Shown here piece by piece: positions 11,905 through 42,187 of a stretch of DNA of 64,000 bases. The notes beneath the pieces were generated by a model. That model was given only the letters and a program-made list of their open reading frames with translations. It was not told the DNA's origin and ran no database searches. The translations under genes were made by a program, and so were the position numbers. Every line of letters starts with the position of its first letter. Within the stretch, counting starts at the first letter, position 1. This stretch comes from an uncultured Ectothiorhodospiraceae bacterium (GTDB lineage: Bacteria > Pseudomonadota > Gammaproteobacteria > XJ16 > Halofilaceae), in the NCBI GenBank assembly GCA_913055615.1, contig CAJXKK010000003.1, forward strand, positions 1 to 64,000, read 5' to 3'.

Positions 11905-12861
11905 ATGATCCAGATTGTCCGCCTCGTGGCCCAGCGCATTGCGCTGGGCCTCTTTACTCTTCTGATCGTCACGTTGCTTATTTTCCTTGCGGTCGAATTG
12001 TTGCCGGGAGACTTCGTAGACGCCATTCTTCGACAGGGGCGTACACAGGAATCGGTCGAGGTCCTGCGCCGCCAGATTGGTCTCGATCAGCCTGCGTATG
12101 TGCGCTACTTTTCCTGGCTCACAAACGCCGCTCAGGGTGATCTCGGCTATTCGTTCTCCAACGAACGCCCAGTATCAGATCTAATCGGCAACCGTCTCTA
12201 CAACACGTTTTTTCTGGCCGGATACGCAGCTGCAATGGCGGTACCGGTTGCATTAACATTCGGAATTCTGGCCGCGCTATATCGAAACAGCGTCTTCGAT
12301 CGTGTCGTTAATATCACCGCTCTCTCCGCAATATCATCGCCAGAATTTCTTGCCGCTTATATTCTAATTTTTGTTTTCTCGATCCAGCTGGGCTGGCTCC
12401 CGTCACTTGCACATATAGCGATTGACACGAGCCTTTGGGAATCATTGAAACTCCTCTTTTTGCCCGCCGTCACCCTAACGCTGGTTACCGTAGCCCATAT
12501 GATGCGTATGACGCGCGCCGCCATAATCAATCTTATGACAAGTCCGTACATAGAAATGGCCCTCCTCAAGGGTGTTGGACCAAAGCGGTTGATTCTTCGC
12601 CACGCATTACCCAACGCCCTGTCACCGATCGTGAATGTAGTGGCCATGAACCTGGCCTATCTGGTGGTGGGTGTTGTTGTAGTTGAAGTCGTTTTCGTCT
12701 ATCCGGGGTTGGGCCAGCTTTTGGTGGATTCCGTATCGAAACGGGATATGCCCGTCGTACAGGCCGGCTGCCTGGTTTTTGCCGTAACCTATATTGGTCT
12801 CAATCTAGTGGCAGACATCCTCTCAATCATCACGAATCCACGTCTTTTGAACCCGAGTTGA
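11905..12861 (+). CDS. Dpp/Opp-type ABC transporter permease (DppB-like)
   Basis: First permease of the importer, 318 residues. The N terminus has one membrane span followed by the periplasmic region with LPGDFVDAILRQGRTQESVEVLRRQIGLDQP typical of DppB. The cytoplasmic coupling motif for the ATPase appears as RAAIINLMTSPYIEMALLKGVGPKRLILRHALPNAL. About six membrane spans. It follows the binding-protein gene closely and precedes the second permease, so the operon order B-C-DF is standard. Confidence 0.92.
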   Translation: MIQIVRLVAQRIALGLFTLLIVTLLIFLAVELLPGDFVDAILRQGRTQESVEVLRRQIGLDQPAYVRYFSWLTNAAQGDLGYSFSNERPVSDLIGNRLYNTFFLAGYAAAMAVPVALTFGILAALYRNSVFDRVVNITALSAISSPEFLAAYILIFVFSIQLGWLPSLAHIAIDTSLWESLKLLFLPAVTLTLVTVAHMMRMTRAAIINLMTSPYIEMALLKGVGPKRLILRHALPNALSPIVNVVAMNLAYLVVGVVVVEVVFVYPGLGQLLVDSVSKRDMPVVQAGCLVFAVTYIGLNLVADILSIITNPRLLNPS

Positions 12862-39691: not shown

Positions 39692-39770
39692 CTAATGGAA
39701 TGGACCGCCGCCTCCCTTCTACCATCGGCGATCGATGAAGAAGGGCCAAGGCGAAAGGAGGAAGCGATCC

Positions 39771-40799
39771 ATGACCATTACAACCATCGGCATCGATCTC
39801 GGCAAGAACAAAATGCACATGATCGGCCTCGATGAAGGCGGCCACGTCGTCGAGCGCCGCGTGTTCGCAAGCCGGACCGCGCTGATCCGGTATCTCAGTC
39901 GCCAGACTCCGGCACGCGTGGCGATGGAGGCCTGCGCCGGCGCGCACTACGTCGGGCGCAAGGCCGAGGCCCTGGGCCATGACGCCCGGCTTCTTCCCGG
40001 TCAGTACGTTCGCGGCTACGTGAAGTCGCAGAAGAACGACTATGCCGACGCGGAGGCGATCGCGGAAGCGGCGACCCGCCCAACGATGCGGCACGTGCCG
40101 ATCAAGGAGGTCAGCCAGCAGGAACTGCAGCTCCTCCATCGCCAGCGTCAGGGCTGGGTCGGCCAGCGCACCGAGACCGCGAACCGCATCCGCGCCGTGC
40201 TGCTCGAGTTCGGCATCACGATCCCCAAGGGGCTCCACCAGCTACGCCGCGAGTTGCCGTTCGTGCTCGAGGATCACGACAACGGTCTGCCGGACCGGAC
40301 GCGGCAGCTGCTCTACACCCTCTGGCGGGACCTGCTCGAACTTCACGAGCGCGTCGACTGGATCACGGCCGAGTTCCAGCGCACCGCCGAGCAGGACCCG
40401 CGGGCGCGATCGCTGCTCGGTATCCCGGGGATCGGGCCGGTCATCGCGACCGCCCTCGTCGCGGCGGTCGGCGATGCCCGCGCATTCCGGCGTGGCCGCG
40501 ACCTGGCGGCCTGGCTCGGCATCGTTCCCAGGCAACACTCGACGGGCGGCAAGACACGCCTGCTGGGCATCTCCAAGCAGGGCAACAGCTACCTGCGTTC
40601 GCTGTTGATCCACGGTGCCCGGGCTCTCGTGCGTCATGCCGCGCGTCGAACCGACGCGCTGGGCTGCTGGATCGCCCGGCTGCAGGAGCGCAAGCCGATC
40701 AATGTCGTGACCGTCGCGCTCGCCAACAAACTCGCGCGGGCAGCCTGCGTGGTGCTCCATCGCCAGGAGCCCTTCCGCGCCGAGGCACTGGTGAACTGA
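39771..40799 (+). CDS. IS110-family transposase (IS1111 group-like)
   Basis: DEDD transposase, 342 residues, full length. N-terminal RuvC-like catalytic part: TIGIDLGKNKMHM (Asp), MEACAGAHY (Glu), KNDYADAEAI (Asp pair). C-terminal Transposase_20 domain: LLGIPGIGPVIATALVA, LAAWLGIVPRQHSTGGKTRLLGISKQGNSYLRSLLIHGAR with the conserved serine. GGAGG precedes the ATG at 39771. There is no frameshift, so the element may be active. I could not define exact ends; IS110 elements usually lack clear terminal repeats and duplications. Confidence 0.93.
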   Translation: MTITTIGIDLGKNKMHMIGLDEGGHVVERRVFASRTALIRYLSRQTPARVAMEACAGAHYVGRKAEALGHDARLLPGQYVRGYVKSQKNDYADAEAIAEAATRPTMRHVPIKEVSQQELQLLHRQRQGWVGQRTETANRIRAVLLEFGITIPKGLHQLRRELPFVLEDHDNGLPDRTRQLLYTLWRDLLELHERVDWITAEFQRTAEQDPRARSLLGIPGIGPVIATALVAAVGDARAFRRGRDLAAWLGIVPRQHSTGGKTRLLGISKQGNSYLRSLLIHGARALVRHAARRTDALGCWIARLQERKPINVVTVALANKLARAACVVLHRQEPFRAEALVN

Positions 40800-41000: not shown

Positions 41001-41097
41001 CGAAACGCCTGCAATTCGAGGCCGAATACATTGGCGTAGCCGGCTCCCTCCAATCGACGGTCGGTGCTTGCATCACGGCGGCGGTCCATACATTTTT

Positions 41098-41516
41098 TTG
41101 AACCACGAATGAACACGAATCGACACGAATGGGCTCCTGGATGGATTACTCGTTCCGGGAGCTTCGCTGTTGTGCGCCCGTAGCGCCATCCGCTGCTTGA
41201 ACCACAGATGGACACAGATAAACACAGATGAAAAAAAGAACGTAAAACACCGGTTCGTTCTAATCACCGCAAGTTACCGCACCACCGGCTCTGTTAGCTC
41301 CAACCGGTTTTGACTTATATCCGTGTTCATCTGTGTTCATCCGTGGTTCTGCCTTTATCGATCGTTCTCGACGCGGATTCAGCGCAGCTCCCGGAACGAG
41401 TAACCCATCCAGGAGCCCATTCGTGTTCATTGCTCGGCGCGTCCATGCACCTTGCCCCTTCGGGGCTAGCGCGAAGATTCGCTCCCGGCGAATCATTCGT
41501 GGTTCCCGCCTTTACG
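41098..41516. repeat. Nested inverted-repeat region made of ACCAC-GAT-ACAC-GAT words
   Basis: The outer arm at about 41124-41163 (CGAATGGGCTCCTGGATGG to CGGGAGCT) recurs inverted at 41386-41423 with one mismatch. Inside it, GAACCACAGATGGACACAGATAAACACAGAT (about 41198-41228) is mirrored by ATCCGTGTTCATCTGTGTTCATCCGTGGTTC (about 41318-41348). Further GAACCACGAATGAACACGAAT words sit at the outer ends (41098 and about 41500). No gene is supported inside; the frames that spell FICVHLWF come from the repeat word itself. Confidence 0.8.
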
Positions 41517-41590
41517 CCCGGTTTGCCCTCCTCGCCACATGTCAATAGACTCATCGGGTCGCCGTTGGCGTGTTTCTCAGGGAGTGGTTT

Positions 41591-42187
41591 ATGTCGACCG
41601 GTATGATTATTTTTCTCGTGGTGCTGGCCGTGGCCATCGGTTATGCGATCGTTATCTACAACCGCATGGTCGAGTTCCGGAATCGCGTCAAGAACGGCTT
41701 CGCGCAGATCGACGTCCAGCTGCAGCGCCGCTACGAGCTCATCCCCAATCTCGTCGAGACGGCCAAAAACTACATCCAGCACGAGCGCGAGACGCTCACG
41801 CAGGTGATCGAGGCGCGCAATCAGGCCAAGGCGGCGGAGGAGAAGGCCGCGCAGCAACCGGAGAACGCCGAGGCCATGCGCCAGCTCTCGCAGTCCGAGG
41901 GCGGTCTCTCGGCGGCGCTCGGCAAACTGTTCGCACTGAACGAGAGCTACCCGGACCTCAAAGCCGACGGCACCATGCGCGACCTGATGGAGGAACTCAC
42001 CTCCACCGAGAACAAGGTCTCGTTCGCGCGCCAGCACTTCAACGACGCGGTGATGTACTACAACACCTTCCGCGAGCAGTTCCCCAACAACATGATCGCG
42101 GGGCCCACCGGTTTCCAGCCGGCCGAACAGCTCGAACTGGATAACCCCGAGGAGGTGCGCAAGCCGGTGCAGGTGTCCTTCGGCTGA
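41591..42187 (+). CDS. lemA: LemA-family protein
   Basis: Membrane-anchored coiled-coil protein, 198 residues. One N-terminal membrane span (residues 4-24), then the LemA signature YNRMVEFRNRVKNGFAQIDVQLQRRYELIPNLVETAKNY and a C-terminal SFARQHFNDAVMYYNTFREQFP. GGGAG lies 6 bp before the ATG at 41591. A membrane M48 protease gene follows 36 bp downstream, a conserved pairing; the function of LemA is not established. Confidence 0.93.
   Translation: MSTGMIIFLVVLAVAIGYAIVIYNRMVEFRNRVKNGFAQIDVQLQRRYELIPNLVETAKNYIQHERETLTQVIEARNQAKAAEEKAAQQPENAEAMRQLSQSEGGLSAALGKLFALNESYPDLKADGTMRDLMEELTSTENKVSFARQHFNDAVMYYNTFREQFPNNMIAGPTGFQPAEQLELDNPEEVRKPVQVSFG

Follow-up and report, generated by a model that had tools for sequence, protein, structure and literature searches.

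Paired short-word arrays around GxxExxY genes probably mark an undescribed class of small selfish DNA elements

Paired arrays of a short word around GxxExxY genes probably represent an undescribed class of small selfish DNA elements, to which a large nested inverted repeat in the 64,000-nucleotide stretch of bacterial DNA analysed here (the window) would belong. Our preferred reading, to which we give a probability of roughly 0.55, is that this repeat is a non-autonomous composite, a pair of type A words within a pair of type G words, from a family of small elements whose ends are inverted arrays of an 8-10-bp word, that the autonomous form of the family consists of a GxxExxY gene with those arrays on either side, and that the encoded nuclease drives the spread. 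A broader proposition, on which we could be argued either way, is that GxxExxY genes with inverted arrays constitute an undescribed mobile or selfish class in bacteria and archaea, in which one small nuclease recognises an evolving 8-10-bp word, environmental word-pair repeats including the window palindrome are non-autonomous offspring, word and enzyme specificity change together, and the same sites are re-colonised by a new word. The two word types, their nesting and the gene to which the words belong go beyond the initial annotation of this DNA.

The nested inverted repeat spans 41100-41505 of the window, with PhoH and a LemA-family gene (right flank, 41570-42187, plus strand) as neighbours rather than within an rRNA gene, and at each end three 10-bp units follow one another as an array. 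The left outer word (41100-41131, plus strand; units GAACCACGAAT, GAACACGAAT and CGACACGAATG) forms the left element end and runs into the left outer arm (41132-41169, plus strand), which terminates in the family motif GGGAGCTTCGCTG and pairs with its complement, the right outer arm (41380-41417, minus strand). Inside the arms lie a left spacer (41170-41198, plus strand), which has no complementarity to the right spacer (41350-41379, plus strand), and then the inner words at 41199-41230 (plus strand; units GAACCACAGAT, GGACACAGAT and AAACACAGATG) and 41319-41349 (minus strand; minus-strand units GAACCACGGAT, GAACACAGAT and GAACACGGAT), which enclose a core (41231-41318, plus strand) not common to the orthologous copy in a sister species, G002. 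The right outer word comprises an inner part (41418-41431, minus strand; plus-strand sequence CATTCGTGTTCATT), an inserted hairpin module, about 65 bp long (minus strand, 41432-41494 or about 41432-41496), and a terminal unit that forms the right element end (41495-41505, minus strand; ATTCGTGGTTC), its junction being identical in G002. Each unit of the outer pair contains GAAT, which defines type G, and the inner units have AGAT or GGAT, which define type A. The repeat in the window accordingly nests an A pair within a G pair and has the 65-bp module in its right G word.

The near-identity of the outer arms proposed in the initial annotation is borne out, with one mismatch over the 41 bp of 41123-41163 and complementarity at 48 of the 52 positions of the longer arms 41118-41169 and 41380-41431. 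The mirrored inner pair that it placed between them is likewise present (90% match between 41213-41232 and 41326-41345 in an inverted-repeat search), both pairs being nested on one common dyad. Its suggestion of a long hairpin agrees with the minimum free energy of 41090-41515, which is -206.5 kcal/mol as RNA, against -123.2 +/- 7.3 for shuffled sequences (z -11.5), and -120.1 as DNA, against -58.1 +/- 4.9 (z -12.8); none of 100 shuffles reached the native stability in either form. Such a very stable RNA fold would also suit an explanation that we consider unlikely, in which the element acts at the RNA level like an intervening sequence (IVS): the inverted words would form a transcript stem cut by RNase III, insertions would be tolerated, and the protein would act on RNA or be a passenger. 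The window site is not rRNA, which speaks against this explanation, and an Rfam search of the window matched no family.

An IS110-family transposase gene (39735-40799, plus strand) lies between PhoH and the element, 300 bp from the latter, and the initial annotation had thought that this neighbouring IS tail might be meaningful. G002 carries an element at the equivalent site with no IS, on which ground we rejected the link; the IS110 beside the element is incidental. The same comparison makes it unlikely that the repeat is a misassembly, since a separate genome has an element with the same right junction at the PhoH/LemA site. That ordinary MITEs or REPINs are being moved by a host IS transposase (IS110, Y1/RAYT or another) is an explanation that we hold to be very unlikely: beyond the proximity of IS110 it can draw on the presence of Y1 genes in the genus, yet the G/A word, allowing up to 3 mismatches and about 1.5 kb around each locus, was found at none of the 11 Y1 (PF01797) loci in the window's genome (G000) and its two sister species of the same genus (G001, G002). 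Y1/RAYT was accordingly rejected as the partner, and the lack of target duplication described below also tells against a host transposase.

The word is dispersed and not single-copy, as had been surmised. Searching the 3.0 Mb of G000 for ACCACRRATGRACACRRAT with up to 2 mismatches returned 143 forward and 141 reverse matches, against 0 for the reversed pattern used as control; G002 has 158 and 146, G001 0 and 1, and the other 34 relatives searched have stray matches only (at most 7 and 2). A lone degenerate minus-strand copy lies in the window itself at 12692-12711, far from the nested element. In the stretches examined, those around the first approximately 100 matches listed per genome, the words occur in inverted pairs, alone or nested, together with some single words, so that the expectation of inverted pairing holds for most copies and fails for these singles. 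The paired copies consist of three-unit 10-bp arrays that are again either of type G (GAAT) or of type A (AGAT), conservation starts abruptly at GAACCAC (84 elements, 44 in G000 and 40 in G002), and the arms of nested elements mostly measure 90-100 bp on each side of the dyad. Anatomy, copy number, pairing and nesting are in this sense direct observations. Copies of the composite type share about 70-86% identity between many sites, which indicates that the composite was copied as a unit. Un-nested copies differ by species: type A in 12 of 13 in G000, where the remaining one has one unclear arm and none is G, and type G in 13 of 13 in G002, with none A.

In being short, non-coding, present in high copy and nested in one another, with terminal inverted repeats in the word-pair elements, the family resembles MITEs; it differs from them in that many copies have unrelated interiors and that no transposase with these word ends was found. 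No target-site duplication was seen among the 84 elements at offsets of -6 to +6 with k of 3-9, but neither was a clean empty site that would fix the junction. The 65-bp hairpin module was present in 19 distinct copies in word-selected loci, every one of them inside a word, while further short matches to it may lie outside such loci; copies elsewhere in G000 and G002 are 88-93% identical. It is possible that this module, which sits within G words and between their units (L047, L058, L104, L128 and others), is a second-order parasite that targets the word. As a side observation, two G000 contig ends (L057 and L060) map to either side of a single G002 element site, from which we suppose that word repeats may break the assembly.

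Comparison of G000 with G002 gave 34 flank-matched rows with both flanks, which, with cross rows left out, make 30 distinct sites by our own count; the window site comes in addition. At these common sites the flanks are 84-93% identical, and among the 8 site pairs aligned in full the interiors could not be aligned in 7, the eighth enclosing a gene. By our own reading, where the outermost word in G000 is A or GGAT (16 two-flank sites), the outermost word in G002 is G in 14 and A in 2. Lineage-specific insertion at hot spots would mimic replacement, since the interiors of simple elements differ between the species. One G002 element site has no element in G000, where a stump, GAACCACGA, abuts the next start codon; as the break falls at an ATGA present at both ends (4-bp microhomology), this looks like a deletion. 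When the own-word loci of G001 were compared for orthologous sites, only L162 matched, away from the element. The sister species thus offer, as different words at the same sites, natural swaps for studying the co-evolution of nuclease and target word.

The sharing of sites between sister species, together with intergenic position and stable hairpins, could also be taken to mean that the host maintains these repeats for regulation or structure, as terminators, nucleoid or gyrase sites, or BIME-like units, and that GxxExxY, a nuclease of the host, came to reside among them. We think this quite improbable: G001, though of the same genus, is essentially without these words, interiors turn over while the flanks keep their similarity, and, as set out next, the word differs together with the gene and the association holds across phyla.

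The search for an associated protein, which had been advised from the outset, led to the gene enclosed at the eighth aligned site. It encodes a GxxExxY protein (PF13366, TIGR04256; above the curated cut-off), 59% identical between G000 and G002, and at this one common site it is bracketed by A words in G000 and by G words in G002, the same difference as that between the un-nested copies. That the word differs between the two sister species, both at the gene and in un-nested copies, is an observation independent of any mechanism. This gene clearly belongs to the GxxExxY family, which is named after a motif only and which the literature that we found links to no element, word or function. Two observations count against the preferred reading: a genome has few GxxExxY genes, and although G words abound in G000, we found no gene there that they bracket. 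The gene supplies a partner protein, and with it a testable mechanism, for a widespread class of unexplained intergenic repeats.

Across the relatives set, PF13366 gave 12 matches in 8 of 37 genomes. We aligned the upstream flank of each gene to the reverse complement of the downstream flank and judged the score by shuffling: inverted arrays flank the gene at p<=0.01 in all 11 testable loci, L149 being left out as its contig ends within the gene, with the upstream array visible. The words at these loci vary (CACGGAG, CACGAAA, CGCCAAG, CGCAAAG, CGCAGAG, CGCAGATT and others), and the gene word of G001, CACGAAA, occurs 8 times forward and 10 times reverse in its own genome but in none of six other genomes searched. 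One copy (L140, L143, L146, L149), flanked by CGCCAAG or CGCAAAG words, lies in what appears by eye to be the trpE-trpG gap in three species of the window's genus and in another family, and looks inherited rather than mobile. A search of viral contigs with the G002 protein returned no relative.

The GxxExxY protein is, according to structure prediction, of RecB/Cas4-like PD-(D/E)XK fold and therefore a predicted nuclease. Its conserved residues in the alignment include D, E/D-x-K and Q-x3-Y, and a model built from 40 sequences has a mean pLDDT of 92. Foldseek placed it nearest to Cas4-like SSO0001, LHK-Exo, the Cas4-family ACE1 and lambda exonuclease (best E 0.0035), and VIA-align gave as nearest solved fold SSO0001, which we take to be a Cas4 protein (Z 9.9, rmsd 3.4 over 98 residues; next rows 7.0). 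A PDB sequence search with the alignment returned one insignificant match (E 0.64). The nearness of the fold to DNA nucleases is a further argument against the RNA-level, IVS-like explanation. For this broadly distributed nuclease family, known by its motif only, the association with words provides a first functional hypothesis.

The initial annotation held that the style of the word recurs in diverse environmental bacteria, and a broad set of loci agrees with this, arrays flanking the GxxExxY genes in it. A contig scan yielded 580 confirmed relatives; we retained the best 80, whose hosts belong to many bacterial phyla, to Methanosarcinales and to Methanoperedens. The flank test was passed by 62 of these 80, compared with 3 of 80 for control windows in the same loci; in direct orientation 22 of 80 passed, which we ascribe to loci with several pairs. 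Several of the 18 loci that fail the test have, by eye, words on one side or further out, yet they remain among the failures in this count. Under a strict word rule, 45 of 80 loci carry the words in the expected orientation and 9 of 80 in the opposite one, while none of the 80 control windows and none of the 1600 shuffles satisfied the rule. A first null, pairing the flanks of different loci, put 28 of 80 above the 99% line (11 of 80 in direct orientation) and was dropped because words are alike between loci and inflate the null. Within the window's phylum, PF13366 is present in 64 of 398 genomes, and 27 of 29 loci pass the flank test (controls 0 of 29), these being from the 30 best-scoring loci rather than a random draw, with L258 left out for its short flank. 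The association of gene and word across phyla is thus established. In Bacteroidales, GxxExxY recurs in one gap with differing words (L181, L185, L196, L213, L219, L241), a gap that by eye adjoins methylmalonyl-CoA mutase genes.

To relate the word at the gene to the word in the genome, we counted two words, forward plus reverse, in 18 genomes with a PF13366 gene, the gene word being read by eye, and in 8 without one. CACAGAG occurs 89, 48, 63, 54, 31, 7 and 7 times in the seven genomes with a CACAGAG gene, 34, 0, 28, 9 and 9 times in the five with a CACGGAG gene, 0, 1, 10, 0, 5 and 0 times in the six with other words, and 0, 0, 0, 0, 2, 0, 0 and 0 times in the gene-less genomes. For CACGGAG the counts, in the same order of groups, are 11, 45, 0, 3, 0, 0 and 0; 23, 24, 172, 10 and 2; 0, 0, 11, 1, 0 and 2; and 0, 0, 8 (all on one strand), 0, 0, 0, 0 and 0. 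Reversed-pattern controls were mostly 0, with up to 15 in G046. The gene word clearly matches the genome word, if not exclusively, and genomes may hold several such genes. Similarity of words also correlates with similarity of proteins (Mantel r 0.25, p 0.0002, n 60, shared ancestry not removed; L212 and L225 left out). The observed match of gene and genome words, like that in the sister species, exceeds what a transcript stem alone would need, and an IVS-like explanation does not by itself account for dispersal.

On the preferred reading of nuclease-driven spread, the GxxExxY nuclease would recognise its own word array, as duplex or as hairpin or single strand, and cut there. Such cuts could allow segments with words at their ends to spread, to enter one another at the dyad and to take each other's place at fixed sites, in the manner proposed for RAYT and REPINs. 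Nesting at the dyad would then record the arrival of one element in another's loop; if the older outer arms were lost, an old site would end up with a new word. What we infer from the patterns described above is that the protein binds and cuts, that the elements move, and in what order these events took place. Simple transposition is disfavoured by the missing target duplications and clean empty sites and by the fixed gene copy in two families.

In our view the system resembles REPIN-RAYT but is served by an unrelated nuclease. Organisation is closest to REPIN-RAYT: the window's family has a dispersed word in inverted pairs, and in REPIN-RAYT, too, a short word is dispersed as inverted pairs, flanks a gene present in few copies, and exists in several classes that each have a gene of their own (PMC3116915). 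The enzyme here is a PD-(D/E)XK protein whereas RAYT is a Y1/HUH transposase, and the word is an iterated 8-10-bp array whereas a REPIN is a single palindrome.

Our tests started from the idea that repeats of this kind go together with GxxExxY and S23 genes. In the open-licence literature, where a subscription paper could be missed, we found no description of the gene-word association; GxxExxY is mentioned there only in passing, once each in two papers, PF13366 or PDDEXK_3 appears in one, and the word strings return unrelated papers only.

Anatomy, by comparison, is closest to the intervening sequences of 23S rRNA with S23p (PF05635), which are small elements with one short ORF, a very stable stem and inverted tandem short-repeat arrays at their ends (PMC4990558). 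There the protein is a four-helix bundle and the repeats are 7 bp long, often with rRNA as their location; by contrast, those GxxExxY elements that we saw are intergenic, have 8-10-bp words and encode a nuclease fold. G000 has no PF05635 gene. For Coxiella, RNase III is reported to remove the IVS and heptameric repeats to lie upstream of the S23 ORF, with mention of older ideas of IVS mobility (PMC4990558), and the removal by RNase III together with the repeats lends the RNA-level explanation some of its appeal. So does the layout of S23/IVP genes: in the relatives set all four S23/IVP loci (L168, L169, L170, L171) are bracketed by inverted arrays of units of about 7 bp. This parallel suggests that rRNA intervening sequences and word repeats follow one design. 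One of the four, L170, is located within a 23S rRNA gene and has stops in its open frame.
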